A DNA stretch of 64,000 bases from the NCBI RefSeq assembly GCF_001429185.1, contig NZ_LMIW01000008.1:1132519-1196518 (forward strand), given 5' to 3'. Below the pieces are notes generated by a model. The model saw nothing but the letters and a program-made list of their open reading frames with translations, made no database searches and had not been told where the DNA came from. Made by a program: the position numbers and the translations under genes. This DNA is from Terrabacter sp. Root85 (lineage in GTDB: Bacteria; Actinomycetota; Actinomycetes; Actinomycetales; Dermatophilaceae). Positions 14,784 through 63,712 of this stretch are shown here, one piece after another. Position 1 is the first letter of the stretch, and every line of letters starts with the position of its first letter.

Positions 14784-16525
14784 TGCCTGCCCCGACACCC
14801 CCGAAGACGCGCGCACGCCGTGCAGCCCCGAGCCGCGGCGTGCGCGCCCTCCACGTCACCGTCCTGCTGGCGGTGCTCATGACGGTGTCCGGCACTGCCT
14901 GGGCGTCCTGGACCGTGACCGGACGCGGCACCGGCACGGCCCCGACGGCAACCCTCACGGCCCCGACGTCGGTCACGGCCACGGCAGCCGCCGGGGCCAC
15001 GACCGTGTCCGTCGCATGGTCCGCGCCGACGACGGGGGTGGCCCCCACGGGCTACCGCATCGACCGCACCGACGTCGGCAGCGCTGCCACCGTCGCCGCC
15101 TGCGGCACGTCGCCCTCCTCGCTCCTCGCCACGACGTCCTGCAACGACGCGTCGGTACCGGACGGGAGCTACCGCTACACCGTCGTCGCCGTGCGCTCCG
15201 GGTGGACGGCGACGAGCGCATCGAGCGCCTCCGTGACCGTCCTGGCCTCGGTTGGCACGAGCACCTCGGTGACGTCGTCGGCCAACCCGTCGGTGGTGGG
15301 CCAGTCCGTGACCTACACCGCCACCGTCAGCGCGGCCACCGGGACACCGACCGGGGCGGTCGCGTTCCGCGACGGCGGCTCCGCGATCACGTGCGCCGGC
15401 GGCTCCCAGACGCTCAGCTCCGGCACCGCGACGTGCACGGTGCCCCAGGCGTCCGCCGGCACCCGGTCGATCACGGCGGCGTATGCCGGGTCGGCACCGT
15501 ACGCGGCATCGTCGTCGTCTTCGCTGTCGCAGGTCGTCGCCCCGGCATCGACGACGACGTCACTCACGTCGTCGGCGAACCCTTCGGCCGTCGGTCAGCC
15601 CGTGACCTACACGGCCAGCGTGTCGGTGTCCGCGCCCGGAGGCGGCGCCCCGAGCGGGACGGTCACCTTCAAGGACGGCTCGACGCCCCTGGCCTGCGCG
15701 GGCGGCACGCAGACCCTCGGCTCCGGATCGGCGACCTGCGTGGTGACCCACACCGCTGCCCTGACGCGCAGCGTCACCGCCGTCTACTCCGGCTCGGCCG
15801 ACCACCTCACGTCCACCTCGCCGACCGTCAACCAGGTCGTCGGGCCGGCGGCCACGACGACCACCCTGACGACCTCGGCGCAGACGGTCCGGAGCGGCCA
15901 GAGCGTCACCTACACCGCGACCGTGGCGGCCACGGTTCCCGGCGGGGGAGTGCCGACCGGCACCGTGACCTTCAAGGACGGCTCGACCGTGATCAGCTGC
16001 TCGTCCGGCACACAGACACTCAGCGCGTCGGGTGTCGCCACCTGCACGACGACCTTCACGACGACCGGCACCCGGTCGGTCACGGCGGCGTATGCCGGCA
16101 CGACGAACCACTCGGCGTCGACGTCCGCATCGCTGAGCCAGGGGGTCGTCAACGGCCAGGCGGCTGGGCTCGTCTTCTCGAACGTCACCGTGGGTGGCAC
16201 CCCGGTGACTCCGAGCTGCACCGGCACGGCCGGCTCCTCGTACAGCTGCACGGTCCCCGGCGGCAACAACGCGGTCGTCATGGCGAACGTCGGGTTCGCG
16301 AGCAGCACGCAGGCGCCGGTGCCCTACAGCGGCGCGACCGAGAGCATCGGCTGGACCTCGTCGGGCAAGACCGCCGGCGCGGGGACCGTCACCGTGGCCC
16401 CGAACGCCACGACCTCGTCCGCCACGGTGACGGCAACGAAGAACGGCGTGAACCCCGCCTCCGTCACGGTGACGTTCACAGAGGCCGGTGGGTCGACGTG
16501 GACCGCGGTGCTGACGGTCTCCTGA
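14783..16525 (+). CDS. Secreted multi-domain bacterial Ig-like (Ig-like_3/5) repeat protein
   Basis: 580 residues. The signal region (LHVTVLLAVLMTVSGTAWA) is followed by SWTVTGRGTGTA, which shares the W-T-x2-G-x-G-x-G-T-A pattern of the TasA-like protein two genes upstream. A fibronectin-III-like domain follows (about 50-155), then three tandem Ig-like repeats of about 95 residues, each with SVTYTATV, GTPTGAVAF or GTVTFKDGS, a Cys pair, and RSVTAAYAGT. A C-terminal domain with CTGTAGSSYSCTVPGGN ends the protein. The start overlaps the stop of the upstream gene. Likely a long extracellular adhesin or matrix partner of the first gene. Confidence 0.85.
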   Translation: MPAPTPPKTRARRAAPSRGVRALHVTVLLAVLMTVSGTAWASWTVTGRGTGTAPTATLTAPTSVTATAAAGATTVSVAWSAPTTGVAPTGYRIDRTDVGSAATVAACGTSPSSLLATTSCNDASVPDGSYRYTVVAVRSGWTATSASSASVTVLASVGTSTSVTSSANPSVVGQSVTYTATVSAATGTPTGAVAFRDGGSAITCAGGSQTLSSGTATCTVPQASAGTRSITAAYAGSAPYAASSSSSLSQVVAPASTTTSLTSSANPSAVGQPVTYTASVSVSAPGGGAPSGTVTFKDGSTPLACAGGTQTLGSGSATCVVTHTAALTRSVTAVYSGSADHLTSTSPTVNQVVGPAATTTTLTTSAQTVRSGQSVTYTATVAATVPGGGVPTGTVTFKDGSTVISCSSGTQTLSASGVATCTTTFTTTGTRSVTAAYAGTTNHSASTSASLSQGVVNGQAAGLVFSNVTVGGTPVTPSCTGTAGSSYSCTVPGGNNAVVMANVGFASSTQAPVPYSGATESIGWTSSGKTAGAGTVTVAPNATTSSATVTATKNGVNPASVTVTFTEAGGSTWTAVLTVS

Positions 16526-16535
16526 GCGTCAGCCT

Positions 16536-16571
16536 CCCCGGAGTCCCCGGAGTCCCCGGAGTCCCCGGAGT
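16536..16571. repeat. Four tandem copies of a 9-bp unit (CCCCGGAGT)
   Basis: A short microsatellite-like array lies in the 65-bp gap between the Ig-repeat gene and the convergent acyltransferase gene. It has no coding role and slippage is possible. Confidence 0.9.
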
Positions 16572-16590
16572 AGTCCGAGTCCCCGAGGGC

Positions 16591-17394: not shown

Positions 17395-17524
17395 GGCGGC
17401 GAGCCTAGTGGTTGCTGAGAACTGGTTGAAAGCCCGACGAGCGCGGGCAGACTCGAGCTGCGAGGTGACCTGCGCAGATGCCCGTCGCGGCTGGTGCCGG
17501 TCCCTCGGTGACGGCACGAACCGG

Positions 17525-18949
17525 TCAGGAGGAGGACATTCTCGAGCGTGCCTCGGCCCGCGTCGTGGGTGCCGGCGGCCCGCTCGCAGCCCGGACGAGG
17601 TCACCCGCGGTGGGGCCCTGGTGCTCCGACTCGTCGACCGTGCGCGGCTCACCCCGGCCGCGTCCGTCGCCGTCCACCGGCGCACGCGTCCGCGCTGCAC
17701 CGACGGTGAGGGCCGCGACCGCCGTCGTGACGGGTACGGCGAGCACGAGGCCGATGGCGCTGGCGAGCGTGCGCACGATCTCCTCCGAGAGCGACTCCGT
17801 CTGGAGCATCTCGAGCACAGGCCGCTCGTAGAGGAAGAGGAGGAGCAGCACGGGTAGCGCCGCACCGGCATACGCGAAGACGATCGTGTAGATCGTCGAG
17901 GCGATGTGGTCGCGCCCGATGCGCATGCCCGACTGGAAGAGCGCCCGTCGCCCCATCGAGGGGGCCGCCGCACGCAGCTCCCACACGGCCGAGGACTGCG
18001 TGATCGTCACGTCGTTGAGGACGCCCAGACCGGCCACGATGATCGCGCACGTCAGCAGCTCGCGCGGGTTCATCGTCGTGACGAAGGAGGCCAGGGTGGC
18101 GCCCTCGTCGTTGGCGACCCCGCTGAGGCGTGCCAGGTCGACGGCGAGCAGACCCAGACCGGCCGTGACCGCGACGCCGAAGAGCGTGCCGGCGAGGGCC
18201 GTGCTCGTCCGCACCGAGAGCCCGTGGGCGAGGTAGAGCACGACGAACATGATCGCCGAGGAGCCGATGAGGGCCACGAGCAGCCCCGGCTGGCCCTCGA
18301 GCAGGGCCGGCAGCATGAACTTGACGACGACGAAGCCGCCGAAGACGAGACCGGCGAGAGCCAGGATCCCGCGCCACCGCGCGACCACCGCCACGACGAC
18401 GAGGAAGAGCGCGAGCATGAGCGACAGGGGAGCCCCGCGCTGCACCTGGAGGAAGGAGTACGTCTCGGGCTGGGTGTCCTGTGGCGGGGTCCGCAGCAGC
18501 ATGACGGTGTCGCCCTCGCGCAGGCCCGACGTGGAGACCGTGGGAGGCACCGAGACGGACACGACCGGACGCACGTCGCCGGACGTCGCGGTGGGTTGCT
18601 CGAGCTGCACCGTGATCGCGCCGCAGGTCGGGTTGCCATCGACGGCGTCACCGCCCTGACCGCCGGCGGGGCCGGCCGCCGTGCTGCCCTCGGCACCCTC
18701 GCAGACCGGGAGGACCCGCTGGACCTCGGCGACGGGAAAGGTCACCCCGGGAGCCGCGAAGTCGGACGTGCCCACCCGGACGGCCGCCTGCGACTCCGCC
18801 GGCCAGTAGCGCACGAGACCGAAGATCGTGGCCGCGGCAGCGAGCGTGATCAGGAGGGTGAGGCCGACCCGGGCCAGCGTGCTGACGGCGACGGTGCCGG
18901 ACGCTGCACGGGCTCCGTGGGCATGGCTGTGCGAGTGTCCGCCGGGCAT
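17525..18949 (-). CDS. YibE/F family multi-pass membrane protein
   Basis: 474 residues. A His-rich N-terminus (MPGGHSHSHAHG) is followed by one membrane helix, an extracytoplasmic beta domain with two Cys (about 60-160), and then seven or so hydrophobic helices. The family signature lies in LLTCAIIVAGLGVLNDVTITQSSAVWEL. YibE/F proteins are of uncertain function, possibly transport. The His-rich N-terminus could bind metal. The tail is polar and disordered. ATG 18949 is preferred over a longer upstream frame of poor composition. Divergent from the phosphatidyltransferase gene. Confidence 0.88.
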   Translation of the reverse strand: MPGGHSHSHAHGARAASGTVAVSTLARVGLTLLITLAAAATIFGLVRYWPAESQAAVRVGTSDFAAPGVTFPVAEVQRVLPVCEGAEGSTAAGPAGGQGGDAVDGNPTCGAITVQLEQPTATSGDVRPVVSVSVPPTVSTSGLREGDTVMLLRTPPQDTQPETYSFLQVQRGAPLSLMLALFLVVVAVVARWRGILALAGLVFGGFVVVKFMLPALLEGQPGLLVALIGSSAIMFVVLYLAHGLSVRTSTALAGTLFGVAVTAGLGLLAVDLARLSGVANDEGATLASFVTTMNPRELLTCAIIVAGLGVLNDVTITQSSAVWELRAAAPSMGRRALFQSGMRIGRDHIASTIYTIVFAYAGAALPVLLLLFLYERPVLEMLQTESLSEEIVRTLASAIGLVLAVPVTTAVAALTVGAARTRAPVDGDGRGRGEPRTVDESEHQGPTAGDLVRAASGPPAPTTRAEARSRMSSS

Positions 18950-19107
18950 GGTGCCGAGTGTGCCAGAGCAGACCGGCGGGGACGCACCCGCGGCACCGCC
19001 CCTCGCACGTTCCGCGCGGACTCCGTCCTCGCTCGACGAGGGGTCGTGTCCGGATCGATGCCGGGCACGCATCTCGGCCCCTCCGGACGCCCGTTAGGCT
19101 TGCCGCC

Positions 19108-19716
19108 GTGGAGGTCGAGAGAGCGGGGGAGCGCGAGCACGTCGTGACGGAGCGCCTGATGACGATCCCCAACGTGCTGTCGGTGCTTCGGCTTCTCGGC
19201 GTGCCCGTCTTCCTCTGGGCGATCGTCTCGGAGCGCGACGGGCTGGCCTTCTTGCTGCTGTTGTTCTCGGGCGTCACCGACTACCTCGACGGCAAGATCG
19301 CCCGTCGGTTCAACATGGAGAGTCGCCTGGGCCAGTTCCTCGACCCCATCGCCGACCGGCTCTACATCCTCACGACCCTCGTCGGGCTCATGTGGCGCGA
19401 GATCATCCCGGTCTGGCTCGTCGTCGTGCTCCTCGCCCGCGAGGTCGTCATGGCGCTGATGCTGCTCTACCTGCGCAGCAAGGGACAGCTCGGCCTGCCC
19501 GTTCACTTCGTCGGCAAGGCCGCGACGTTCAACCTGCTCTACGCCTTCCCCCTGCTGCTCCTCGCGCACCGTGACGACTGGCTCGGCGACCTCGTCCGCC
19601 CCATCGGCTGGGGCTTCGCGTGGTGGGGCGTCGTCCTCTACTGGCTCGCCGCCGTGCTGTATGCCGTCCACGCCCGCCTCGTGCTGGCGCAGCGCCCCCG
19701 GGTGGTGACCCCGTGA
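19108..19716 (+). CDS. CDP-alcohol phosphatidyltransferase (PgsA-like)
   Basis: 202 residues with the full catalytic motif D-x2-D-G-x2-A-R-x8-G-x3-D-x3-D in TDYLDGKIARRF and RLGQFLDPIADR (about residues 57-83), followed by four to five membrane helices. It transfers a phosphatidyl group from CDP-diacylglycerol to an alcohol, probably glycerol-3-phosphate or a relative, at the membrane. GTG 19108 sits eight bases after TAGGCT, the pattern of a leaderless actinobacterial transcript; GTG 19144 is an alternative. Its stop overlaps the DUF881 start (GTGA), beginning a conserved four-gene run. Confidence 0.88.
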   Translation: MEVERAGEREHVVTERLMTIPNVLSVLRLLGVPVFLWAIVSERDGLAFLLLLFSGVTDYLDGKIARRFNMESRLGQFLDPIADRLYILTTLVGLMWREIIPVWLVVVLLAREVVMALMLLYLRSKGQLGLPVHFVGKAATFNLLYAFPLLLLAHRDDWLGDLVRPIGWGFAWWGVVLYWLAAVLYAVHARLVLAQRPRVVTP

Positions 19717-21091: not shown

Positions 21092-21093
21092 AC

Positions 21094-24040: not shown

Positions 24041-24080
24041 GGCCGTCCCCACCGTCCACGTGCCGGGGTACGGTGGAGGA

Positions 24081-25682: not shown

Positions 25683-28610
<2,928 letters not shown>

Positions 28611-30241: not shown

Positions 30242-30275
30242 GCGTATGCCGTGTGCCCGGGGACACGGCATACGC
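30242..30275. terminator. Bidirectional terminator built from an inverted pair of the recurrent word
   Basis: Arms GCGTATGCCGTGT and ACACGGCATACGC pair perfectly around eight bases, between convergent genes ending at 30204 and 30292. Each arm contains one copy of the over-represented CGGCATAC word. Confidence 0.85.
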
Positions 30276-31863: not shown

Positions 31864-31864
31864 C

Positions 31865-33284: not shown

Positions 33285-34379
33285 ATGCAGTTCGGGATCT
33301 TCACCGTCGGCGACGTGACCACCGACCCCACGACGGGCCGTACGCCGACCGAGCACGAGCGGATCGAGGCCACCGTCGCCATCGCCAAGAAGGCGGAGGA
33401 GGTCGGGCTCGACGTCTTCGCGACCGGACAGCACCACAACCCGCCGTTCATCCCGTCGGCCCCGACGACGACGCTCGCGTACATCGCCGCCCAGACGGAG
33501 CGGATCATCCTGTCCACGTCGACGACCCTCATCACGACGACGGACCCCGTGCGGATCGCGGAGGACTACGCCACCCTGCAGCACCTGAGCAACGGGCGCA
33601 TGGACCTCATGATGGGCCGCGGCAACACCGGCCCGGTCTACCCGTGGTTCGGCAAGGACATCCGCGACGGGATCCCGCTCGCCATCGAGAACTACGCGCT
33701 GCTCCACCGGCTGTGGCGCGAGGACGTCGTCGACTGGCAGGGGAAGTACCGCACCCCGCTCCAGGGCTTCACCTCGACGCCGCGCCCGCTCGACGGCATA
33801 CCGCCGTTCGTCTGGCACGGCTCGATCCGCAGCCCCGAGATCGCCGAGCAGGCGGCCTACTACGGCGACGGCTTCTTCTCCAACCACATCTTCTGGCCGG
33901 CCAGCCACACGAAGCAGATGGTCCAGCTCTACCGCCGCCGCTTCGAGCACTACGGCCACGGCAGCGCCGACCAGGCGATCGTCGGGCTCGGCGGGCAGGT
34001 CTTCATGCGGAAGAACAGCCAGGACGCGGTGCGCGAGTTCCGTCCGTACTTCGACAACGCCCCCGTCTACGGCCACGGTCCGTCACTCGAGGAGTTCACG
34101 AGCCAGACCCCGCTCACCGTCGGCAGCCCGCAGGAGGTCATCGAGAGGACGCTCGGCTTCCGCGAGTACGCCGGCGACTACCAGCGACAGCTGTGGCTGC
34201 TCGACCACGCCGGCCTGCCGCTCAAGACCGTCCTCGAGCAGCTCGACATCCTCGGCGAGGAGGTCGTGCCGGTCCTGCGCAAGGAGTTCGCCGCCCTCAG
34301 GCCCGCCCACGTCCCGGACGCCCCGACCCACGCGAGCCAGCTCGCCGCCGCAACCCCCGAGAAGGAGCTCATCCCGTGA
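33285..34379 (+). CDS. Luciferase-like FMN-dependent monooxygenase (CE1758-type)
   Basis: 364 residues of the LLM class: MQFGIFTVGDVTTDPTTGRTPTEHER, FATGQHHNPPF, ILSTSTTLITTTDPVRIAEDYATL and LMMGRGNTGPVYPWFG. It should use reduced FMN from the partner reductase to oxygenate an unidentified substrate. Strong AAAAGGAG site. Its stop overlaps the next start (GTGA), making a two-component monooxygenase operon controlled by the operator at 33251. Confidence 0.9.
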   Translation: MQFGIFTVGDVTTDPTTGRTPTEHERIEATVAIAKKAEEVGLDVFATGQHHNPPFIPSAPTTTLAYIAAQTERIILSTSTTLITTTDPVRIAEDYATLQHLSNGRMDLMMGRGNTGPVYPWFGKDIRDGIPLAIENYALLHRLWREDVVDWQGKYRTPLQGFTSTPRPLDGIPPFVWHGSIRSPEIAEQAAYYGDGFFSNHIFWPASHTKQMVQLYRRRFEHYGHGSADQAIVGLGGQVFMRKNSQDAVREFRPYFDNAPVYGHGPSLEEFTSQTPLTVGSPQEVIERTLGFREYAGDYQRQLWLLDHAGLPLKTVLEQLDILGEEVVPVLRKEFAALRPAHVPDAPTHASQLAAATPEKELIP

Positions 34380-34999
34380 CCACCTTCCACCTCGCCGTCA
34401 TCACGGCCGGCATCACGCAGCCGTCGTCGACGCGCCTGCTCGCCGACCGCCTCACCGAGGCCACCGTCCGGGCGCTCGCCCGGCACGACGTCGGCGAGGT
34501 CGTCGTCGAGGTCGTCGACGTGCGCGAGGTCGCGCACGACCTGACGAACCACGTCCTGACCGGCTTCGCCTCGCCCGACCTGCAGGTACGTCTCGACGCG
34601 ATCACCGAGGCGGACGCGGTCGTCGTCGCCACCCCGGTGTATGCCGCGTCGTACAGCGGGCTGTTCAAGATGCTCATCGACGTGCTCCCCAAGGACGCGC
34701 TGCGCGACACCCCGGTGCTGCTCGGCGCGACCGGTGGCACGGCCCGCCACTCCCTCGCGATCGACCACGCCCTCCGCCCGCTCTTCGCCCACCTCGGCGC
34801 GCTCGTCGCGCCGGTGGCGGTCTTCGCGGCCAGCGAGGACTGGGGGAGCGTCGACGCCGGCCGGCTGGGCGAGCGGATCGAACGCGCAGGTGCCGCCTTC
34901 GCGGCCCTCGTGAGCGGTTCGCCGCGGGCCGATCGGGTCGACCCGTTCGAGCAGGTCACGCCCTTCGAGTCGATGCTCACCGACCTCCGCGCACGATGA
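34376..34999 (+). CDS. NADPH-dependent FMN reductase (CE1759-type)
   Basis: 207 residues with a flavodoxin-like fold: FHLAVITAGITQPSSTRLLADRL, then TPVYAASYSGLFKMLIDVLPKDAL, which forms the FMN phosphate and NADPH-contact loop, and LLGATGGTARHSLA. It supplies reduced FMN to the monooxygenase encoded by the overlapping upstream gene. A GC-rich hairpin terminator follows at 35006. Confidence 0.9.
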   Translation: MTTFHLAVITAGITQPSSTRLLADRLTEATVRALARHDVGEVVVEVVDVREVAHDLTNHVLTGFASPDLQVRLDAITEADAVVVATPVYAASYSGLFKMLIDVLPKDALRDTPVLLGATGGTARHSLAIDHALRPLFAHLGALVAPVAVFAASEDWGSVDAGRLGERIERAGAAFAALVSGSPRADRVDPFEQVTPFESMLTDLRAR

Positions 35000-37561: not shown

Positions 37562-37969
37562 TCACCCTGCGGCCGCCGCCGCCCGCTCGGCCGCGTCGAC
37601 GTCTGCCCGCGTCGGCGCGAGCACGTGGGCGGCATACGGCTCCGGGTGACGGCGGAGGTAGACCTTGATGTACGGACACAGCGCGACGATGGATCGGCCC
37701 GACGCGAGCGTGGCGTCGAGGGCGTACGCGGCGAGGCGCCCGGCGAGGCCCTGGCCTTCGTACGCCGGACCGACCTCGGTGTGGAAGAAGACGACGCGTG
37801 CGGGCACCTCTGGTGTGGCACCGGGGACGACGGCGTAGCTCGCCACCCCGATGACACGGTCCCCGTCGCGCAGCTCGAAGCGCCCGCGGTCGGGGTTGTC
37901 GGAGACCTCGATGCCGTCGTGCGCGCCGTCGCCGGCGACGATCCGGCCCTCACCCGTCTGCTCGCTCAT
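37562..37969 (-). CDS. GNAT-like N-acetyltransferase (NATD1/YjdJ type)
   Basis: 135 residues. The short acetyl-CoA site is in FHTEVGPAYEGQGLAGRLAAYAL, and the family end motif is CPYIKVYLRRHPEPYAAHV, characteristic of the Acetyltransf_CG group. Substrate unknown. It precedes lhgO in the same direction and is divergent from the YrdC-type gene by 25 bases, so the promoters overlap. Confidence 0.88.
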   Translation of the reverse strand: MSEQTGEGRIVAGDGAHDGIEVSDNPDRGRFELRDGDRVIGVASYAVVPGATPEVPARVVFFHTEVGPAYEGQGLAGRLAAYALDATLASGRSIVALCPYIKVYLRRHPEPYAAHVLAPTRADVDAAERAAAAAG

Positions 37970-43310: not shown

Positions 43311-44461
43311 AGCGAGGCGTCGATCCACGCACCATGCGGGTGACAGGTCCCGAGGACCGTGGGAGGGAGCGCGTGTCCGTGGCGCCAGCGCTGCAGGCCG
43401 AGCACGGTGTTCCCTTCCACGGGAAACTCGGGCCCGTCGAGGCCCGGGACGCACCCGCCCGGCTCGGCGGTGAGCCACGACAGGTGGGAGACGGTCCCGG
43501 CCAGCTCGTCGAGGACCGCGGCCAGGTCGCGACGACGCGGTGCGGGGAGGTAGGTCATCGCCCACGAGCTGAGGACCACGACGTGCGCGCCGTCGCCGGC
43601 GTCAGTGCGCGCGAGCGTCACCGCGTCGGTCAGTCGGTCGACCATGTCGCCACGGAGCACCGTGGGAGGGTCGGGGCGGAGCAGGTCGGCAGCCGCGCGG
43701 AAGCGCTCGATGCGGCCCGGGACCTCCGGCCAGAGGCACGCCTCGAGCCAGCGCACCTCGTCGACGGACGCGAGGTCGACGGGCTCGAGATCCACGCCGA
43801 CGCGGCCACGCACGGCGGGCAGCGCAGCCCCGGCCGCCGTGAGCAGCGCCCCGACGCCGGAACGGTCCTCACCCGAGCACCGGACCGCAGAGGCGCCGTC
43901 GCCCAGGAGTGCCGACCCGGTGGGCGAGGACAGCTCGACGGCGTACTGGTCGACGCCGAGCAGCAGGCCGGCGCTCGCACCGAGCTCGACGATGGCGAGC
44001 GGGACGTCGCCGGAGTCAACTGTCGCCGCAGCGAGCCCTACGGCGACGTAGACGGCTCGGTTCACCTCGTTGGTCTGGGTGCCGTGCGTCGCAATGAGCC
44101 GGGTCAGCTCGTCGACGTGGTCGAGGACCGTCCGCCGCACGTCGGGCCACGGATCGCCCGTCGCAACGCTCGCCGCCCTGGTGACACTCGGATACCACCG
44201 GGCCGCAGGCAGATCCGGGTTGCACAGGACGAGGTGGTGCATGGCGGCGAGCCAGAGAACGGGCCGAGCCTGCCCGGGCCTGGCCGCGAGCAGCAACGAC
44301 GCGGCCTCGTCGTCGTGGGCGACGTGTCGGCAGACGGTCGAGTAGAGCGGAAGAGCGGCATACTCCGTCGCGAACTCGGTGAAGCGCCGCTGGATCCTCG
44401 CCAGCCGAACGGGGTCCGGTGACGATCGCACCGGGTCAGGCACCGGTGGCACCGTCGACAC
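43292..44461 (-). CDS. DUF2332 domain-containing protein
   Basis: 389 residues. The family pattern includes [74 protein letters not shown] and a C-terminal HPHGAWID. The middle region resembles a methyltransferase-like fold, but no substrate is known. The start is uncertain: GTG 44461 lies 26 bases inside the end of the DUF664 gene, with GTG 44467 and 44443 as alternatives. It is the last gene of an rlmC-DUF664-DUF2332 run, and its 3' end meets the ChW fragment. Confidence 0.8.
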
Positions 44462-44735: not shown

Positions 44736-45934
44736 GTCGACACGCCTCCTGACGCGGAATCGACTGACTGAGAACGTGATTCACGCTCGAGCAGGACGAT
44801 GACCTCATGGTGCGACGTCTGGGGGAACATGTCGAAGAGACGCGCCTCGCGAGCCCGGTAGGACGGCATGCGAGCCAGGTCACGGGCCAGGCTGTCGACG
44901 TTGCAGCTCGAGTAGGTCACGTGCGTGGCGCCGGAGCCCTCGAGCCATCGGGTCAGGTCCGGGCCGATCCCGCGACGCGGCGGGTTGACGACGACCATCG
45001 TCCGGTCGGATCCCGGCAGGTCCCGGTCGAGCGCCTCGACGTCCGTGGCGTCGCCGGCACGGAACTCCAGCCGGCCGAGGTCAGGGTGTTCGGCGCGCAA
45101 CCGGGACGCACTGGTCTCGGCACTGCGCACGGCCTCGGCCGAGACCTCGACGCCGATGACGTGGGAAGCGCCTGCTCGCGCGCAGTGCAGCGCGAATCCG
45201 CCCACGCCGCAGTAGAGGTCGAGGACCGTGGTGGGGTCGACGGTGCGCGTCCAGGCCTGCGCCTGGTGGTAGAGGCCGGCGGCGACCGTGGTGTTGGTCT
45301 GGAAGAAGCTGTTGGGGCGCAGGTGGAGGACCACGTCGCCGACGGGCATCGCGAGGTCATCGCTCTCGGTCAGGACGATCTCGGTGTCACCTTCGAGGAC
45401 GGCCTTGTGCTCCGGCTGGAGGTTCACCGTGACGACCGACACCTCAGGCAGCCGGGTCCGGAGCGACGACAGACGAGACTCGAGCAGGGCCAGGTGACGG
45501 CGGGACCGCAGGACGAGCCGGAGCATGACGTCCCCGGTGGGGGAGAGGGTGAGGATGAGGTGCTTCAGCTCGCCGCGGCGGGCGGCCACGTCGTACGGCT
45601 CCAGGCCGATCTCGTCGACGGCGGACGCGAGCCGGGGGATGAGGCGCTGAAGCGGCGGCTCGTACAGACCGCAGCCACGCAGGTCGACGCCGTTCGCGTC
45701 GGCGTCGAGGATCCCGACGGTCACCGCGCCGGTGACGCCACCGACGACGAGCTTGGCCTTGTTGCGGAAGGCCGACTCGGCGCTGGGGAAGGGGTCGAGC
45801 CAGGCGACGTCCGGGGCCACGTCGGCGAGGGCGCGTCGGCAGCGCTCGTCCTTGTCGGCGAGCTGGACGGCATACGGCACACCCATGAGGGCACAGGAGC
45901 GGCAGCGGCCGGCGTCGAAGTAGTCGCACTGCAT
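44732..45934 (-). CDS. rlmC: 23S rRNA (uracil-5-)-methyltransferase, RlmC/RumB-type
   Basis: 400 residues. N-terminal cysteines [18 protein letters not shown] could hold the iron-sulfur cluster of this group. The methyltransferase core has [18 protein letters not shown] (SAM site), [11 protein letters not shown] and the catalytic Cys in [17 protein letters not shown]. It methylates carbon 5 of a uracil in 23S rRNA (U747 in Escherichia coli). ATG 45934 follows TAGCCT by eight bases and lacks a ribosome site, which suggests leaderless translation. First gene of the run with DUF664 and DUF2332. Confidence 0.92.
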
Positions 45935-46215: not shown

Positions 46216-48396
46216 GTGAACCCGCTGACGACCAGCGCCTTCGACCTTCGCGACCACCTGGCACCCAAGGCCGACCCGGCCCTCATCGCCCACGACGACC
46301 TCCACTTCGCCGCGATCGCCGAGACCCTCGACGCGACGGTCGCCGAGCTGTCCGACCGTCTCGACGCAGCCCGTCGGGCACCGGCACGCACCGGCCAGGC
46401 CGCGCTCGACCGTGACCAGGAGGTCCACCGCCTCACGGCCCGCCTGCGGACGCTGCGCCGCTACGGCATCGACCTCTGCCTCGGTCACATCGTCCCCGAG
46501 AACGATTCTCACCCTGTGTACATCGGCCGTCTCGGGCTCTCCGACACCGCCGGACGCCGGCTGCTCCTGGACTGGCGCTCCCCTGCAGCCGAACCGTTCT
46601 TCGGCGCCACCCACGGCAACCCCATGGGTCTCGCGAGCCGCCGCCGCTACCGCTGGACCCGGGGACGCGTCAGCGACTACTGGGACGAGGTGTTCACCAC
46701 CGATGGTCTGCACGGACGCGTGGCCCTCGACGACGAGTCCGCCTTCATCGCCTCGCTCGGCGCGAGCCGCTCGCCGCGCATGCGGGACGTCCTGAGCACC
46801 ATCGCGGCCGACCAGGACGCCATCATCCGCGCGGGCTCCCGAGGCGCGCACGTCGTCGACGGAGGCCCGGGCACGGGCAAGACGGTCGTCGCGCTCCACC
46901 GGACGGCATACCTGCTCTACTCCGACCCGCGCCTCGGCCACCGCCGGGGCGGCGTGCTCTTCGTCGGCCCGCACGAGCCCTACCTCGCCTACGTCTCCGA
47001 CGTGCTGCCCAGTCTCGGCGAGGAAGGTGTGCAGACGTGCACGCTGCGCGACCTCGTTCCCGAGGGTGACGCGGCGGCCCCCGAGACCGACCCGGAGGTG
47101 GCCCGGCTCAAGGCGTCCATGGACCTCGTCCGGGCCATCGAGCCGGCCGTGGCGCTCTACGAGGAGCCGCCGACCCGCGGCATGGAGGTCGTGACGCCGT
47201 GGGCGGACGTGTGGCTCTCCCCTGCCGACTGGGCCGAGGCCTGCACCGCCGCTCTCGGCACGCCGCACAACGAGGCCCGCGACGACGTGTGGGAGGCGTT
47301 GCTGACGATCCTCGTCGAGCGGCATGACCTCGAGGACCGGATCGACGACGACGGCGCCGACGTCGAGCTCGAGGCCACCCCCGCCATGGTGCGGCGCTCG
47401 CTCGAGCAGAACCGGGAGCTGCGCACGCTGTTCGACCGGACGTGGCCGCTCCTCGATGCCGCGGACCTCGTCGGCGACCTCTGGACCGTCCCCGCCTACC
47501 TGCGTCGGTGCGCCCCCACCCTGACGGTCGAGCAGGTGCGCCGGCTGCAGCGCGCCGAGCCGGACGCGTGGACGGTGTCGGACCTCCCCCTGCTCGACGC
47601 GGCCCGGATGCGGCTCGGCGACCCGGAGGTCTCGAGACGCCGACGACAGCGTGAGGCGGCCCTCGCGGCGGTGCGCGCCGAACGCGCCACGGTCGTCGAG
47701 CACCTCATCGCCTCGGACGACTCCGACATGCACGTCATGTCGATGCTGCGAGGTGACGACCTCCGCAGCGCCCTCGACGACAACGACGGGACGACCGTCG
47801 ACCCCGACCTGCTGGCCGGCCCGTTCGCCCACGTCGTCGTGGACGAGGCCCAGGAGCTGACCGACGCGGAATGGCAGATGCTCCTGTCCCGCTGCCCGTC
47901 GCGGAGTCTCACCATCGTCGGCGACCGCGCCCAGGCCCGGCACGGGTTCACGGAGACGTGGCAGGAGCGACTGAGTCGCGTGGGTCTCGACCGGGTCACG
48001 CTGTCGTCACTCACCATCAACTACCGCACTCCGGAAGAGGTCATGCTCGAGGCCGAGCCCGTCATCCGTGCCGCGCTCCCGGACGCGAACGTGCCCACCT
48101 CGATCCGCGAGAGCGGCCTGCCCGTTCAGCACGGCCTGGCCGCCGACCTCGAGGCGGTGCTCGGGACGTGGCTCGACGCGCACCCCGACGGAACGGCTTG
48201 CGTCATCGGCGCCCCCGGCCTCGAGGAGCAGCCTCGGGTCCGGTCGCTCAGCCCGACGCTGTCCAAGGGGCTCGAGTTCGACCTCGTCGTACTGGTCGAT
48301 CCGGACGCCTTCGGTGACGGCATCGAAGGTGCCGTCGACCGCTACGTCGCCATGACACGCGCCACCCAGCAGCTCGTCGTCCTCACTCAGGGGTGA
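46216..48396 (+). CDS. helR: HelD-family RNA-polymerase-associated helicase, HelR-like
   Basis: 726 residues. UvrD-like superfamily 1 motifs: Walker A GGPGTGKTVVALHR (about residue 216), Walker B HVVVDEAQELTDAEWQML, INYRTPEEV, SKGLEFDLVVLVDP and VAMTRATQQLVV. The N-terminal arm (about 1-70) is helical, as in HelD proteins that push into RNA polymerase and release stalled enzyme or rifampin. The RAE upstream supports the HelR sub-type, which protects against rifamycins in Streptomyces. GTG 46216 is the probable start, without a strong ribosome site. Its 3' end overlaps the convergent MarR gene by 14 bases. Confidence 0.9.
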   Translation: MNPLTTSAFDLRDHLAPKADPALIAHDDLHFAAIAETLDATVAELSDRLDAARRAPARTGQAALDRDQEVHRLTARLRTLRRYGIDLCLGHIVPENDSHPVYIGRLGLSDTAGRRLLLDWRSPAAEPFFGATHGNPMGLASRRRYRWTRGRVSDYWDEVFTTDGLHGRVALDDESAFIASLGASRSPRMRDVLSTIAADQDAIIRAGSRGAHVVDGGPGTGKTVVALHRTAYLLYSDPRLGHRRGGVLFVGPHEPYLAYVSDVLPSLGEEGVQTCTLRDLVPEGDAAAPETDPEVARLKASMDLVRAIEPAVALYEEPPTRGMEVVTPWADVWLSPADWAEACTAALGTPHNEARDDVWEALLTILVERHDLEDRIDDDGADVELEATPAMVRRSLEQNRELRTLFDRTWPLLDAADLVGDLWTVPAYLRRCAPTLTVEQVRRLQRAEPDAWTVSDLPLLDAARMRLGDPEVSRRRRQREAALAAVRAERATVVEHLIASDDSDMHVMSMLRGDDLRSALDDNDGTTVDPDLLAGPFAHVVVDEAQELTDAEWQMLLSRCPSRSLTIVGDRAQARHGFTETWQERLSRVGLDRVTLSSLTINYRTPEEVMLEAEPVIRAALPDANVPTSIRESGLPVQHGLAADLEAVLGTWLDAHPDGTACVIGAPGLEEQPRVRSLSPTLSKGLEFDLVVLVDPDAFGDGIEGAVDRYVAMTRATQQLVVLTQG

Positions 48397-49526: not shown

Positions 49527-49742
49527 GCAGGGGAGGCGGAAGAGCGGGGGGCTCAGGTGGTCGCCTAGGCCGTGTCGTCGATGACGAAGGACGTCTGGGC
49601 CAGCGGGTGACGACCTCCTGACGCCCGCGAGGTCGACCGCCGAGAGGGCGTATGCCGTCCGCTGACCCCGGGCGCCCGACGCTGCGGCGTGTTTCGGCCT
49701 CTCCCCCTGCCCGCGTGCCGCCCCGTGTGGGACAGTCCTCGC

Positions 49743-51752: not shown

Positions 51753-51846
51753 CGTATGCCGTCGTCCCCGGTTCGAGATCGTGCCAGCGAGGTGCGTGGC
51801 GGGATCACCTCGAACCCGGCGACGCAGAGGGACGAGCGCGCGGGGC

Positions 51847-53207: not shown

Positions 53208-54783
53208 CCTCTTCCTTCGTTGTCTCCGGCGCTGCCGGGCGGCCGCTGCGAAGACCCAGGGCGAGCATCGTCAGCAGTGCGGCGGCGGCGACCCACTCGG
53301 GGGCCTCCCCCACCCGGGTCGCCAGCGTCGTGGCGTCCCGCAAGGGTAGTGCTCCTCTGACCACCGCCTGTGTGAACAACGACGTCACCTGGTGGGCGGT
53401 TCCGTCGGGCGTGATCAGGGCGCTCTGGCCGACCGTCGACACGTGCACGACGGAGCGGCCGAACTCCATGGCTCGCAGTCGGCTGATGGCGAGCTGCTGG
53501 GGCGACTCGGCGGTGTAGCCGAAGGTCGCGTTGTTCGTCTGGACCACGAGGACGTTGGCGCCGGTCTGCACGGCGTCGCGCATGATGTCGTCGTAGGCCA
53601 CCTCGAAGCAGATGGCGAGGCCGGCCCGGATCTGCCGGCCCGAGGCCGTCGTGACGTGGAAGACGCCGGGCGCGGGGCCCTGGACGAAGTCGCGCGTGAC
53701 GAGGTCGACCTCCGTGCTGAAGTTCCGCCAGAAGGACCGGTTCGGGATGTACTCGGCGAACGGCACCGGGTGGCGCTTGACGTAGCGGTCGGTGTTGCCC
53801 TTGCCGGGCTCGAAGAGCAGGGCCACGTTGGAGACGAACCCGACGGGCTCCTCGAGCAGGCCCCCGACGATGAGGGGTCGCTTCAGCGCGTCGACGGTCT
53901 CCAGGATGAGGTCCTTGGCGTCGGCGTTGCGCAGGGGGTCGATGTCCGAGGCGTTCTCGGGCCAGACGACGAGGTCCGGGGCCGGGGCGCGCCCGGCGTC
54001 GACGTCGTCCTGGGCCTTGAGCGTCGCCGCGACGTGGTTGTCGAGGACCTGGCGGCGCTCGGCGTTGAAGTCGAGACCGGGCCGCGCCACGTTGCCCTGG
54101 ACGCCGAGGAACTGGGCGGTCGGGCCGTCGGTCGGTAACGGGACCGCCAGCCCCACGAGGCCGAGCGCGAGCGCTCCCACGGCGGGCAGCACGAGGCGAC
54201 GGGACGGCATACGCGATCGCGGCGTGGTGGTGGCGCCGCTCCCCCGGCGCTCGGCAGCGGCTGACAGCGCGTGCTGGGCGGCGAGCGCGAGGAGGCCACC
54301 GCTGAGCGCGATGACGAAACCGACGAACGGCGCGCCCCCGAGTGCCACGAGCCGGCCGAACGGCGAGTCGGCCTGTCCGAAGGCCAGCTTGAGCCAGGGA
54401 AAGCCACCGTAGGGGGCGCGGGCCCGGAAGCCCTCGGCCACGACCCACACGAGCGCGAACGCCAACGGGCGGACGCTCCCCCGGCGGCTCAGCCAGCCGT
54501 AGAGCCCGCCCGCCACGCCGACGAAGAGGGCCTGCAGCGTCGCGAGGGCGAGCCACGGCAGCGCGCCGACGTAGATGCCCGACCAGCTGAGCGTCGGCAC
54601 GAAGAAGACGAGCCCTCCGGCGAGACCGAGCAGGAAGCCTCGACGGCCCCCGGAGCCGGCCCAGGCCCACGCCCACAACGCGAGGGCCACCGGTGCGGTC
54701 ACCCAGACGTCGAAGGTCGGGAACGCGAGGCAGAGCAGTCCGCCGCCGAGCAGGGACACGAGGAGACGCCGCACGGGGTTCAC
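53188..54783 (-). CDS. lnt: Apolipoprotein N-acyltransferase
   Basis: 531 residues. Six or so N-terminal membrane helices are followed by a nitrilase-like extracytoplasmic domain with the catalytic triad: Glu in [11 protein letters not shown], Lys in [14 protein letters not shown] and Cys in [12 protein letters not shown] last membrane helix precedes an acidic tail (KEEDDDDAA). It adds the third acyl chain to lipoprotein N-termini. The downstream ppm gene overlaps it, matching the Lnt-Ppm1 pairing known from mycobacteria and corynebacteria. Confidence 0.93.
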
Positions 54784-54812
54784 CGTATGCCGTGCGGCCG
54801 GGACGTCAGCGC

Positions 54813-57693: not shown

Positions 57694-58817
57694 GCGTCAG
57701 ATCCTGCCTTCTCGGTGGCGAGGCGGTCCTCGAAGAGCGCCCGCACGGCCGGGACGTCCCGGAGGAGGCGCAGCGCCGTCTCGGCGTGGCCGGGGACATA
57801 GCCGTTGCCGACGAGCATCCGCACGTCGGCGGCGAGGCCCTCGGCCCCGAGGGCGGCCGCGGCGAAGTTCGTGGCCATGCTGAAGAAGATGATGGTGCCG
57901 CCCTGCGCGGTCGCGAGGATCGCGGGCTGCTCGCAGCCGGGCACGTCGACGCAGACCACGGTGACGTCGGCCGGTCCCCCGGCGGACTCGACGGCTGCCG
58001 CCAGGCCGAGAGGCGACCGCGCGTCGGCGAGGACGACGGCGTCGGCGAGGCCGCTCCCCTCGAGAACCGTGCGCTCGCGCTCGACCGGGACGACGCCGAT
58101 GGTCCGGGCGGCGCCGGCGGCGCGAGCGGCCGCCAGCGACAGCGAGCCGGACTTGCCGGCCCCGCCGAGGACGGCCACCGTCGGCGCGACGCCGCGGGCG
58201 GCATACTCCCCCACGACGCGCTCGACGAGCGCCGGCGCGCCGCACACGTCCATGACCATGAGCGCCAGGTGCGGGTCGAGGTCGGTGGGGAGGGTGGCAG
58301 CGATGCTGCGGCCGAAGAGGATCGCGTGGCCTTCGGCAGGCACCTGCTCGGAGAGGCCGTCCCAGCGGGCCAGGCCGTCGGTGATGGCGAGCGGGGTCAG
58401 GGACAGCGACACGAGGGTGGCGACGCGGTCGCCGACCGCGAGACCGAGCGTGCTGTCCGGTCCGACCTCCTCGACCGTGCCGATGAGCATCCCGCCCGAG
58501 CCGGTCACGGGGTTCTGCATCTTGCCGCGCGTCGCGACGATGTCGAGGACCTCGGCGCGCACGGCTCCCCCGTCGACGGTGCCGTCGGTGCCGTGCTTCT
58601 CGGCGAGCTGCCGGTAGGACGCCGCATCGAGGTTGAGCGTCTCGACCGCGATGCGGACCTCGTCGGGCCACAGCTGCGGGCTGGCGTCGAGTCGGCGGGC
58701 CGCCTGCGGGAGGGTGATGGCGTCGCCGGTGGGCTCGAGCACACGGTGCAGGCCGACGGGCGACGACACGCGGGCGGCGTCCGTGCGATCCGGGGTGGCC
58801 GACGTCGGGTCTGACAC
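57690..58817 (-). CDS. kdd: L-erythro-3,5-diaminohexanoate dehydrogenase
   Basis: 375 residues of the zinc-lacking medium-chain-like Kdd type: RGKMQNPVTGSGGMLIGTVEEVGP, a Rossmann motif VAVLGGAGKSGSLSLAAAR, and FFSMATNFAAAALGAEG. It oxidises 3,5-diaminohexanoate with NAD to a keto acid in the lysine route. GTG 58817 fits an AGAAGGA site at nine bases; GTG 58823 is too close to it. First gene of the operon and divergent from kamA. Confidence 0.9.
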   Translation of the reverse strand: MSDPTSATPDRTDAARVSSPVGLHRVLEPTGDAITLPQAARRLDASPQLWPDEVRIAVETLNLDAASYRQLAEKHGTDGTVDGGAVRAEVLDIVATRGKMQNPVTGSGGMLIGTVEEVGPDSTLGLAVGDRVATLVSLSLTPLAITDGLARWDGLSEQVPAEGHAILFGRSIAATLPTDLDPHLALMVMDVCGAPALVERVVGEYAARGVAPTVAVLGGAGKSGSLSLAAARAAGAARTIGVVPVERERTVLEGSGLADAVVLADARSPLGLAAAVESAGGPADVTVVCVDVPGCEQPAILATAQGGTIIFFSMATNFAAAALGAEGLAADVRMLVGNGYVPGHAETALRLLRDVPAVRALFEDRLATEKAGSDA

Positions 58818-58892
58818 GTTCACAAATCCTTCTGTATGTACGGACGGAAACCGAAGATCTTGCGTCAGCATAGGGGCACGTCGGCGGTATCT

Positions 58893-58953
58893 TCACAATT
58901 TCGTGAGCCGGACGTGTTTGAGCGAGACGGCCCCTGACGTTACTGTTCTCGGC
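58893..58953 (+). promoter_or_regulatory. kamA promoter and partial palindrome in the divergent region
   Basis: TACTGT (58941-58946) lies seven bases before the kamA ATG and fits a -10 box of a leaderless message. TCAC-N6-GTGA (58893-58906) lies between the two divergent starts and may be an operator. Confidence 0.4.
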
Positions 58954-60399: not shown

Positions 60400-60422
60400 C
60401 ACCGCGCACGAGCACGTATGCC

Positions 60423-60457
60423 GTGTGGCTCGGGACCGTCGCGGTCCCGGGCCACAC
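60423..60457 (+). terminator. Terminator after kamA
   Basis: GTGTGGC-T-CGGGACC pairs with GGTCCCG-G-GCCACAC around GTCGC; a copy of the recurrent GTATGCCG word overlaps its left side. Confidence 0.8.
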
Positions 60458-60565
60458 GTCGTCCCGGGCCCGGGTCCGGACGTAGAACTGCGTTGTCAGC
60501 CTGACCCATCGCCACCTAGCGTGGCTCCCGTCCACGTGCATCGACCGAGCGGAGACGAGCGCCCG

Positions 60566-61300: not shown

Positions 61301-61917
61301 CTTCCCGCTCCCCCGGCACCCGCGTCCGCATGCCTCGCGCCGAGCGGGAGGCGCAGATGCTGGCGGTGGCCGAGCAGGTCTTCTCGGCCCGCGGCATCCA
61401 GGCCGCCACGATGGACGAGATCGCCGAGCTCGTCGGCGTCACCAAGCCCCTCATCTACGACTACTTCGGGTCGAAGGAGGGCCTGTTGGCGGCGACGATC
61501 GAGCGGGCCCGCGGGCAGCTGCTCGCTGCCCTCATCGACTCGTGGGTGGCCCAGCCGGCCGCACCGGCCCGCGACCGGGTGCGCGGTGTCGTGCACGCGT
61601 TCTTCTCCTTCATCGACGAGCACGACCAGGCGTTCGCGCTGCTGCGCACCGAGGGAGCCCTCATCGGCGAGGCCTCGGCGTCCGTCGAACGCATCCGCCA
61701 GCAGACCGCCAAGGCGTTCGCCGAGGGCCTGCGGACGCTGCCGGCGTTCGAGGCCCTCGAGTCGCGCCGGGTCACCGTCATGGCCGAGATCCTCATCGGC
61801 GGGTGCGAGCGCCTCGCGGTCTGGCGCAGCACCCACCCGGGCACGACGGCCGACGAGGCCACCGACCTCGTCGTCACGACGATCTGGGACGGGCTCGCGT
61901 CCGTCGGCGACGCCTGA
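61297..61917 (+). CDS. TetR-family transcriptional regulator
   Basis: 206 residues with the helix-turn-helix ILAVAEQVFSARGIQAATMDEIAELVGVTKPLIYDYFGSKEGLL in its usual place (key VGVTKPLIYDYFGSKEGLL, about 25-70). The C-terminal ligand domain is helical and not assigned. GTG start overlaps the VOC stop by four bases, and its stop overlaps the next ATG by one, so it probably regulates this operon or the nearby transporter. Confidence 0.9.
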   Translation: MTSRSPGTRVRMPRAEREAQMLAVAEQVFSARGIQAATMDEIAELVGVTKPLIYDYFGSKEGLLAATIERARGQLLAALIDSWVAQPAAPARDRVRGVVHAFFSFIDEHDQAFALLRTEGALIGEASASVERIRQQTAKAFAEGLRTLPAFEALESRRVTVMAEILIGGCERLAVWRSTHPGTTADEATDLVVTTIWDGLASVGDA

Positions 61918-62414
61918 TGGCCAAGCAGCGCGCAGCCGACGGTCCCTCGACCCCGGCCACCGTCGCCCTCGACCGCGCAGGCGTCCCGTACACCCGCCAC
62001 CCCTACGAGCACGACCCCGCGGCGGCGAGCTACGGCCTCGAGGCGGCGGCCGCGCTCGGCGTCGAGCCCTCTCGCGTCTTCAAGACCCTGCTCGTCGACA
62101 CCGGCGCGACGCTGGCGGTGGGCATCGTGCCGGTGGACGGCCAGCTCGACCTCAAGGCCGTGGCCGCGGCCATCGGCGTCAAGAGCGTGACGATGGCCGA
62201 TGCCGCAGCGGCCGAGCGCAGCACCGGCTACGTCGTCGGCGGCATCTCCCCCGTCGGGCAGAGGCGCGCGCTGCCCACGGTCCTCGACGAGACGGCATAC
62301 GGCTTCGGGACGGTCTACGTCTCCGGCGGCCGACGCGGCTTCGACATCGGCCTGGCGCCCGAGGACCTTGCGTCGGTCACCCGAGCCCGTCGTGCCCGTA
62401 TCGGTCGCGCATGA
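61917..62414 (+). CDS. ybaK: YbaK/EbsC-type aminoacyl-tRNA deacylase (Cys-tRNA(Pro) deacylase)
   Basis: 165 residues with ALDRAGVPYTRHPYEHDP, PSRVFKTLLVDTGATLAVGIVPVDGQLDLKAVA (the catalytic Lys in VFKTLL) and GYVVGGISPVGQRRALPTVLDE. It removes cysteine from mischarged tRNA-Pro. It is the third gene of the operon, overlapping both neighbours. Confidence 0.93.
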   Translation: MAKQRAADGPSTPATVALDRAGVPYTRHPYEHDPAAASYGLEAAAALGVEPSRVFKTLLVDTGATLAVGIVPVDGQLDLKAVAAAIGVKSVTMADAAAAERSTGYVVGGISPVGQRRALPTVLDETAYGFGTVYVSGGRRGFDIGLAPEDLASVTRARRARIGRA

Positions 62415-63712
62415 CGCTGACCCACGTGGCGTCCCGCGACGCGCCGGCGCGAGCGCGCGTGCCGCAGCTGCAGCTCGTCCTCGTCCTCGCGGCGCTGACG
62501 ATGGTCGGGCCGTTCACGATCGACGCGATCTTCCCGGCGTTCGAGGTGATGACCCACGACCTCGGCGTCGACAAGGTCGCGATGCAGCAGACCGTCAGCG
62601 TCTACCTCGTCGCCTTCGCGGTCGCGAGCCTCTTCCACGGGTCACTGTCCGATGCCCTCGGTCGTCGTCCCGTCATCCTCGCGGGCTGCGCGCTGTATGC
62701 CGTCACCAGCGCCTTGTGCGCGCTGGCACCGAGCATGCCGCTCCTGCTGGGCGCCCGCGGCGCCCAGGGCCTCGTCGCCGGCGCCGGGATGATCGTCGGG
62801 CGCACGGTGGTGCGCGACCTCTTCGACGGCGCGCACGCCCAGCGGTTCATGAGCCACATCTCGATGATCTTCGCCATCGCCCCGGCGCTCGCGCCGATCG
62901 TCGGCGGCGCCATCCTCGGCTGGGGGTCGTGGCGCACGATCTTCTGGGTGCTCGCGGCCTACGGAGTGCTCCTCGTCGTGGTGACGCTGACGTCGCTGCC
63001 CGAGACGCACCCGGCCGCTGAGCGGGTCCCGTTCCGGCCGCGGCCGTTGCTCACGTCGTTCACGTCCGCCGCGGGCGACGGCGCGGTGCTGCGCCTCAGC
63101 GCCGCCATCGCCCTCAACTTCGGCGCCCTCTTCCTCTACATCTCCTCGGCGCCCGCGATCGTCGTCGACCACCTGGGGCTCGGCGAGCGCGACTTCGGCG
63201 TGCTCTTCGTCCCGCTCGTCGTCACCATGATGATCGGCTCGTTCCTCACGGGGCGCCTGGCCGGTCGCGTGCGACAGGGGGCCTTCGTCCTCGCCGGCTT
63301 CCTCGTTGCCCTCGCCGGCGGCGTGTTCGCGGTCGCCTACCAGGCGCTCGTCGACGTGCCCACGCTGCCGTGGACCGTCGTTCCCGTGGCCGCCGCCTCG
63401 CTCGGCGTGTCCCTCGTCTTCCCCATCCTCACGATCGCGCTGCTCGACCTGCGGCCGCGGGAGCGTGGCGCCGTCTCCTCGTTCCAGTCCTTCCTCAGCA
63501 CGTGCGTCAACGCGCTCGTGGCCGGGGCGGTCTCACCGCTCGTGAGCGGCTCGCTGACGACCCTCGCCGTCGTGGCGGGGTCGATGACGCTCTCCGCGCT
63601 CCTGCTCTGGGCCTGGCACCGACGGCGTATGCGTGCCCGAGCCGGCGCTGCCCACGCACCGGTCGACGTCGTGGTGCCGTCACCCGCTCCCGAGCCGATC
63701 GAGCAGCTCTGA
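62411..63712 (+). CDS. MFS drug transporter, Bcr/CflA (DHA1) type
   Basis: 433 residues with twelve membrane helices. Characteristic parts: LAALTMVGPFTIDAIFPAFEVM, GSLSDALGRRPVIL (loop 2-3), GLVAGAGMIVGRTVVRDLFDG and ISMIFAIAPALAPIVGG. The Bcr/CflA branch exports bicyclomycin, chloramphenicol or other drugs. ATG overlaps the ybaK stop by four bases (ATGA). Co-transcription with a TetR gene suggests inducible efflux. The C-terminal 40 residues are cytosolic and polar. Confidence 0.92.
   Translation: MTLTHVASRDAPARARVPQLQLVLVLAALTMVGPFTIDAIFPAFEVMTHDLGVDKVAMQQTVSVYLVAFAVASLFHGSLSDALGRRPVILAGCALYAVTSALCALAPSMPLLLGARGAQGLVAGAGMIVGRTVVRDLFDGAHAQRFMSHISMIFAIAPALAPIVGGAILGWGSWRTIFWVLAAYGVLLVVVTLTSLPETHPAAERVPFRPRPLLTSFTSAAGDGAVLRLSAAIALNFGALFLYISSAPAIVVDHLGLGERDFGVLFVPLVVTMMIGSFLTGRLAGRVRQGAFVLAGFLVALAGGVFAVAYQALVDVPTLPWTVVPVAAASLGVSLVFPILTIALLDLRPRERGAVSSFQSFLSTCVNALVAGAVSPLVSGSLTTLAVVAGSMTLSALLLWAWHRRRMRARAGAAHAPVDVVVPSPAPEPIEQL

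Follow-up and report, generated by a model that had tools for sequence, protein, structure and literature searches.

Sequence-tagged uptake of DNA is known for species of two bacterial families, the Pasteurellaceae and the Neisseriaceae (PMC5031613). The neisserial DNA uptake sequence (DUS), ATGCCGTCTGAA, is a word of 10 to 12 nucleotides that occurs in thousands of copies (up to 3,770; PMC3630211), in both orientations and as inverted repeats, with eight dialects in one family around a short fixed core and two dialects in one genome. The pasteurellacean uptake signal sequence (USS; AAGTGCGGT, or ACAAGCGGT in the Apl type) is 8 to 10 nucleotides long and occurs about once per kb, again in both orientations, and inverted copies lie close together at the ends of genes (one strain has 69 -/+ and 40 +/- pairs; PMC7811141). 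Here we describe CGGCATAC, a word repeated on both strands of a stretch of 64,000 nucleotides from Terrabacter sp. Root85 (contig NZ_LMIW01000008.1, positions 1,132,519 to 1,196,518; hereafter the window). We lean towards the view that CGGCATAC, extended to RCGGCATACG, serves this bacterium as a DNA-uptake sequence and that many of its relatives use dialects of it. The literature on uptake sequences, competence or these genera, most subscription journals and preprints on bioRxiv lying outside its coverage, yielded no uptake sequence described in Actinobacteria; for the letters of the word itself, the matches listed include primers, adapters and unrelated work, as far as their available text goes.

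Enrichment, placement and strand-specific spacing

A sequence-only reading of the window had counted by eye about 23 copies between 13 and 64 kb and two in a mobile element, most of them extended. The count holds, with coordinates exact to within 2 nt: there are 25 exact copies, 12 on the + strand and 13 on the - strand, 23 of them at 15-63 kb and 2 in the first 13 kb, where 100 dinucleotide shuffles give an expectation of 1.01 (standard deviation (sd) 0.99, maximum 4). Seventeen of the 25 extend to ACGGCATAC. Among all 8-mers of the window the word ranks second, behind ACGGCATA, which is a one-base shift of it.

The genome holding the window (G000; 4,865,335 bases in 15 contigs) has 2,300 copies in near-equal orientations (1132 + and 1168 -), and 237 copies (125 + and 112 -) of the same word read backwards. 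In 464 kb of this genome, 193 copies were found versus 9.9 under a third-order Markov model (19.5x), and ACGGCATACG occurs 65 times versus 0.7; at every k from 6 to 12, the top of the ranking is CGGCATAC, its parts or its extensions. The flanks contribute little, namely A or G on the 5' side and G on the 3' side. In 884 kb, eight permuted words of the same composition have 1-29 copies against 400 for CGGCATAC, and a ninth, GGCATACC, again a one-base shift, has 84. A frequency near Markov expectation and equal enrichment of words of like composition, the two outcomes that would have spoken against the sequence-only reading, are thus not what was found, and the enrichment is confirmed as real and genome-wide.

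A simple custom caller placed 822 genes in the 884 kb (89% coding). Of the copies, 281 lie in genes (0.36/kb), 109 are intergenic (1.13/kb) and 10 fall on borders. Codon usage had been proposed as a check: once synonymous codons are shuffled inside genes, 8.2 + 19.6 copies remain of the observed 89 + 192, or 27.8 versus 281 (30 shuffles, maxima 14 and 28). Most coding copies are read as Tyr-Ala (174) or Ala-Tyr (62), together 236 of 281, so the earlier remark that the word forces unusual codons was broadly correct.

Inverted pairs in -/+ arrangement no more than 30 nt apart number 11 in the 884 kb, versus 1.4 expected, and this hairpin arrangement accounts for 15 of 18 close intergenic pairs. 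The hairpin in the window folds at -26.0 kcal/mol, with none of 200 shuffles as good. Among five inverted pairs that were folded, four lie well outside their shuffles (z -3.4 to -7.9) and one lies within (z -1.25). The sequence-only reading took the window pair for a terminator. The pair is real and folds, but no T-run follows it or any other inverted pair in the flanks inspected, so a terminator role is suggested by its place between two convergent genes.

The two orientations are balanced locally as well (97 + and 107 - over 22 stretches of G000, none skewed). The earlier statement that there is no strand skew therefore stands, but it was incomplete, as each strand is spaced separately. In the 884 kb, same-strand pairs less than 1 kb apart number 22 versus 93.6 expected, and the ratio of observed to expected rises to 0.70 at 1-2 kb, 0.83 at 2-3 kb and 0.99 at 3-4 kb. 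Opposite-strand pairs at 100-1,000 nt are at expectation in both arrangements (43 and 41 versus 41.2 each). Along contig C1, the intervals between the first 100 + copies have a coefficient of variation (CV) of 0.63, versus 0.99 (sd 0.10) at random, with 0 of 20,000 random sets as even. In a contiguous 400 kb of G000, the + copies (CV 0.75; 2/5,000) and the - copies (CV 0.79; 58/5,000) are each evenly spaced; the combined copies are not (CV 0.93; 802/5,000), and even spacing of all copies is accordingly wrong for the combined set.

Permuting strand labels over fixed positions, within coding and intergenic classes for G000, gives the same picture for pairs 100-1,000 nt apart. In G000, 20 of 104 pairs are same-strand versus 51.9 expected (sd 5.1), and none of 10,000 permutations is as low; coding copies alone give 16 of 69 versus 34.5 (0/10,000), intergenic copies alone only 2 pairs. 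The exclusion is also present in G030 (35/119 versus 59.1; 0/10,000), in G011 and G035 with the dialect word CGNCATAC (221/507 versus 252.9, 15/10,000; and 90/209 versus 104.2, 240/10,000) and in G034 with CGGCATCC (30/84 versus 41.7; 53/10,000). Control words in G000 lack it: CGGCATCC has 29 of 42 same-strand pairs (20.9 expected), CGGCGTAC 4 of 9 (4.5) and CGGCCTAC 7 of 7 (3.5). By interval statistics G030 is even on both strands (0/3,000 each) and mildly even when they are combined (28/3,000); the per-strand CV of G011 is not significant. Same-strand exclusion is thus seen in five genomes, each with its own dialect, with a reach of about 1 kb, weak to 2-3 kb; such strand-specific spacing is new. 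It suggests that whatever reads the word treats each orientation separately, and that a further copy pointing the same way is redundant within about 1 kb.

Distribution and dialects among relatives

The sequence-only reading proposed looking for the word in related genomes, and it is there, within limits. We compared 58 genomes: 9 of the genus, 27 others of the family and 22 from other families. CGGCATAC is clearly enriched in 9/9 genus genomes and in 13 of the 27 others; G024 is intermediate (235 versus 47), 13 are not enriched, and none of the 22 from other families is. A draw from the order comprised 396 genomes: among its 34 family members, 22 have at least 600 copies and the other 12 at most 71, and none of the 362 genomes outside the family is enriched (the highest count is 180, its control 195). 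A scan with a ComEC alignment gave 80 best loci, mostly about 22 kb long, which include Humibacillus xanthopallidus, Intrasporangium flavum, Phycicoccus, Ornithinimicrobium and Dermacoccus; from these genera we take the family to be the Dermatophilaceae/Intrasporangiaceae. Seven of the 80 loci are enriched in the family word, namely that of H. xanthopallidus DSM 21776 (13 copies in 22 kb, versus 0.5) and those of six metagenome-assembled genomes. It is not enriched at the ComEC loci of I. flavum, one Phycicoccus and Dermacoccus abyssi, and the Ornithinimicrobium locus has 3 copies in 13 kb.

Relatives carry CGNCATAC, CGGCATTC, CGGCATCC or CGKCGTAC, that is, single-base dialects between genera, which are newly described here. 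The whole-genome figures that follow are word versus reversed control, and these controls are rough. CGGCATTC reaches 3,135/27 in G020 and does not exceed 352 in any of the other 30 genomes searched; we judged G020 by its raw count because reversed controls of CGGCATTC are low everywhere (96 versus 5 in G000). The same genome additionally has CGGCATAC (1,025/101). CGHCATAC occurs alongside CGGCATAC in G035 (4,011/617), G011 (3,747/884), G012 (2,147/765), G019 (1,641/638), G013 (909/342) and G026 (926/549), and lies below its control in the strict genomes G000 (86/153) and G025 (34/115). CGGCATCC has 3,949/289 copies in G034 and 3,816/392 in G024, where CGGCATAC has only 40 and 235; the other 36 genomes searched have 260-1,548, topped by G055 of another family (1,548/184) and G009 (1,336/310). 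A 40-kb sample of G031 gave CGGCGTAC (30/5.0) and CGTCGTAC (20/4.4), and a 100-kb sample of G032 gave GRCGTACG forms. Loss of the word in word-negative genera is therefore the wrong description for G034, G032 and G031, which have other words. G021, G022 and G028 were sampled too little or left out of this survey.

On contig C7 of G020 (1-29 kb; loci L053 and L099), CGGCATTC occurs throughout and all 8 copies of CGGCATAC lie at 20.8-27 kb; the pattern is that of two dialects side by side, or of a stretch from another lineage. In G018 (L031, L032) there is a longer repeat around GGTTCAACGACGGCTGC, with about 13 copies in 40 kb.

Related words of GGCATCC type were found in all three genomes sampled from f19, a second family of the order (stretches L240-L243): CGAGGCATCC 18/0.5 in 40 kb of G055, and in 20 kb of G088 and G073, CGCGGCATCC 11/0.4 and CGGCATCC 31/4.9. 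The words in f19 suggest that the system is wider than one family; samples of 20 kb from four further families gave no related word.

To see turnover at single sites, the window from 44 to 64 kb was aligned with seven congeners, a small sample; a second syntenic region was too diverged for use. Sites of CGGCATAC were kept in 31 of 44 comparisons, with about 20 expected from all 8-mers and about 25 from 8-mers containing ATA or TAT, and congeners have six further sites that the window lacks. Four congeners have lost the - copy at 51754, and two of these have a new - copy elsewhere in the same spacer.

A proposed uptake sequence and rival explanations

CGGCATAC is dense, occurs in both orientations and is more frequent between genes than within them; it forms hairpin pairs, has dialects that differ by single bases and is limited to one family in its occurrence. 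Taken together, these traits match the profile of DUS and USS (PMC3630211, PMC1939737, PMC7811141, PMC5031613, PMC2346458). For the same reasons, the higher intergenic frequency apart, the best fit is a word selected at the DNA level and looking like an uptake sequence. From one genus to another, copies have been replaced in their thousands, which argues for a process that propagates itself, such as biased transfer. As an uptake sequence, the word would give DNA carrying it an advantage on entry into competent cells, and would spread further with every such biased transfer. Its reader would be the competence machinery: ComEA and ComEC, together with a filament of Tad type or an as yet undescribed receptor. 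This reader would take one strand, on single-stranded DNA or else in a single fixed orientation. Single-stranded DNA may be what reaches the receptor or a later step; alternatively, entry from the word may be directional, which would leave the two directions non-redundant. We infer all three: uptake, the receptor and the reading of one strand. The sequence-only reading had spoken of an uptake or architectural word; the profile agrees with the first, whereas the second leaves the strand-specific exclusion and the dialects unexplained.

The likeness to DUS has its limits. DUS belongs to a Gram-negative family, and its core CTG is missing from CGGCATAC. As receptor it has ComP, one of the type IV minor pilins, and no pilin of that class was found in this genus (PF07963). 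We know of no strand-specific exclusion in DUS. The reverse complement of the extended word, CGTATGCCGTCC, has ATGCCGTC in common with ATGCCGTCTGAA (PMC5031613), an overlap that may be chance because the functional CTG core is not shared.

More tentatively, monoderm Actinobacteria may possess, in two or more families of the same order, a self-DNA recognition of their own that is independent of that of Neisseriaceae and Pasteurellaceae. Its words, of the CGNCATNC and CGNGGCATCC kind, would differ by single bases from genus to genus and be read on one strand only, whether as single-stranded DNA or in a fixed direction; the chromosome strands would then be tagged and spaced independently, as a strand-resolved species barcode. 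If true, this would be a further independent origin, in Gram-positive, high-GC bacteria, and would show that sequence-tagged uptake can do without an outer membrane. It would provide a natural replicate for the dispute between mate recognition and molecular drive as the reason for uptake sequences, and dialect boundaries would become a testable map of gene-exchange partners. Any mechanism has to account for the strand-specific spacing, a new quantitative constraint, and tagged DNA could, if uptake were confirmed, ease genetic study of these bacteria.

Co-occurrence with competence genes had also been proposed as a check. ComEC, ComEA and TadE are present, but equally in word-negative genomes. 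ComEC was found in 57 of the 58 relatives' genomes, TadE in 34 of 36 family genomes, and in G000 a ComEA-like open reading frame lies directly upstream of ComEC. The ComEA helix-hairpin-helix is found in 77 of the 80 ComEC loci, word-positive and word-negative alike; the only word-positive locus without it, L106, has a sequence that begins at ComEC. Transformation in the actinobacterium Micrococcus luteus uses ComEA/ComEC and Flp/Tad pili (PMC6370729), the same gene set as found here, which makes a Tad-based route plausible; unlike our proposal for CGGCATAC, no sequence preference is apparent in the available part of that paper.

Several observations weigh against an uptake sequence. Strand independence is at odds with plain double-stranded, orientation-blind uptake, which does not predict strand-specific exclusion (it follows if the word acts on one strand), and Haemophilus influenzae uptake is independent of USS orientation (PMC1939737). 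Single-mismatch forms of USS are enriched tenfold in Actinobacillus pleuropneumoniae (Apl; same source), whereas the 24 single-base changes of CGGCATAC occur 660 times versus 563 expected in the 884 kb (1.17x), some forms reaching 2.9x and others being depleted. Type IVa pilins (PF07963) have no matches in the nine genus genomes, with some in 2 of 36 family genomes, and none of ComEC, ComEA, TadE, type IVa pilins and RecC tracks the presence of the word in the genomes or loci examined; the first four were rejected as markers of it. No sharp word of this kind was seen in 20-66 kb each of G009, G010, G014, G016, G017, G018 and G027, nor in pieces of I. flavum, one Phycicoccus and D. abyssi (20-66 kb). 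Codon-atypical genes as a class are not depleted in the word (0.36/kb in the least typical quintile versus 0.25/kb in the most typical).

Depletion in foreign DNA is only a hint. The first 13 kb of the window, a conjugative or mobilisable element judging by a TrwC-type relaxase with helicase domains (Pfam; 2064-5015, + strand), have 2 copies versus about 6 expected at the genome rate. Elsewhere in G000, L020 (C8:1100001-1120000) has 2 copies in 20 kb versus about 9.5 expected, a GC content of about 0.67 and codon-atypical genes, and is possibly an acquired island; it is the lowest of 21 separate 20-kb stretches, chosen after the fact.

The main rival to an uptake sequence, which we consider unlikely, is a Chi-like site. 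Chi of Escherichia coli, GCTGGTGG, is a short asymmetric enriched word read on one strand, as CGGCATAC would be. Here a helicase-nuclease other than RecBCD (AdnAB or AddAB) would enter at a DNA end, read the word on one strand and switch to recombination, each orientation serving one direction of travel, so that strands would be spaced separately; redundancy on the same strand without redundancy between strands is predicted, as seen. Unlike Chi, however, CGGCATAC has no strand skew in any of the 22 stretches, and it has dialects between genera and hairpin pairs. To our knowledge neither hairpin pairs nor single-base dialects with thousands of copies replaced between genera are features of Chi. 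RecC (PF04257) has no matches in G000, which rules out a RecBCD Chi there, and was found in 4 of 22 word-enriched versus 7 of 13 non-enriched family genomes.

A binding site for a nucleoid or chromosome-organising protein, spaced for packing, would account for regular spacing on each strand, but a protein bound to duplex DNA gives no reason for the orientations to be spaced independently. The uneven combined spacing in G000 (mildly even in G030), the dialects and the absence of the word from some genera also make such a site very unlikely. We give slightly less credence still to a methyltransferase that acts on one strand, or a defence system that takes such a mark as 'self', with CGGCATAC as its recognition site; a word that is asymmetric tags a single strand, which would allow separate upkeep of the two, but restriction sites are usually avoided rather than enriched. 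Finally, codon usage, base composition, mutation bias and adapter artefacts can be practically dismissed as the source of the word, for although most coding copies are in Tyr-Ala or Ala-Tyr frames and the Illumina P7 oligo includes CGGCATAC, the Markov and codon-shuffled nulls rule out codon or composition bias (the latter null being tenfold lower), intergenic density is threefold the coding density, near-misses are not enriched, 484 kb of G000 contain no adapter stretch of at least 15 bases, genomes of one family split cleanly, and same-strand copies exclude each other.

Copies in the window and other enriched words

Table 1. Positions of CGGCATAC and of the hairpin in the 64-kb window
Feature	Position	Strand
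CGGCATAC, inside TrwC relaxase gene of mobile element	2350..2357	+
CGGCATAC, inside TrwC relaxase gene of mobile element	3591..3598	-
CGGCATAC	15481..15488	-
CGGCATAC	16090..16097	-
CGGCATAC	17866..17873	+
CGGCATAC	19659..19666	-
CGGCATAC, inside glycine dehydrogenase gene	26774..26781	-
CGGCATAC, inside glycine dehydrogenase gene	27110..27117	+
Hairpin, inverted pair of CGGCATAC between two convergent genes	30242..30275	
CGGCATAC, hairpin arm 1	30244..30251	-
CGGCATAC, hairpin arm 2	30266..30273	+
CGGCATAC	33794..33801	+
CGGCATAC	34639..34646	-
CGGCATAC	37630..37637	+
CGGCATAC	40589..40596	-
CGGCATAC	44356..44363	+
CGGCATAC	45868..45875	+
CGGCATAC	46904..46911	+
CGGCATAC	49650..49657	-
CGGCATAC, in spacer	51754..51761	-
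CGGCATAC	54205..54212	+
CGGCATAC	54785..54792	-
CGGCATAC; CGGCGTAC in three congeners	58199..58206	+
CGGCATAC	60416..60423	-
CGGCATAC	62293..62300	+
CGGCATAC	62695..62702	-

Other words are likewise enriched. ACTCCCCC / CGGGGGAG occurs 10 times in the window versus 0.8 expected; CGGGGGAG has 90 copies versus 24.8 in the 464 kb of G000, and ACTCCCCC has 12 versus 0.9 in G032 and 13 versus 1.4 in G011. The palindrome AAGCGCTT occurs 22 times versus 1.6 in G000 C1:420001-820000.

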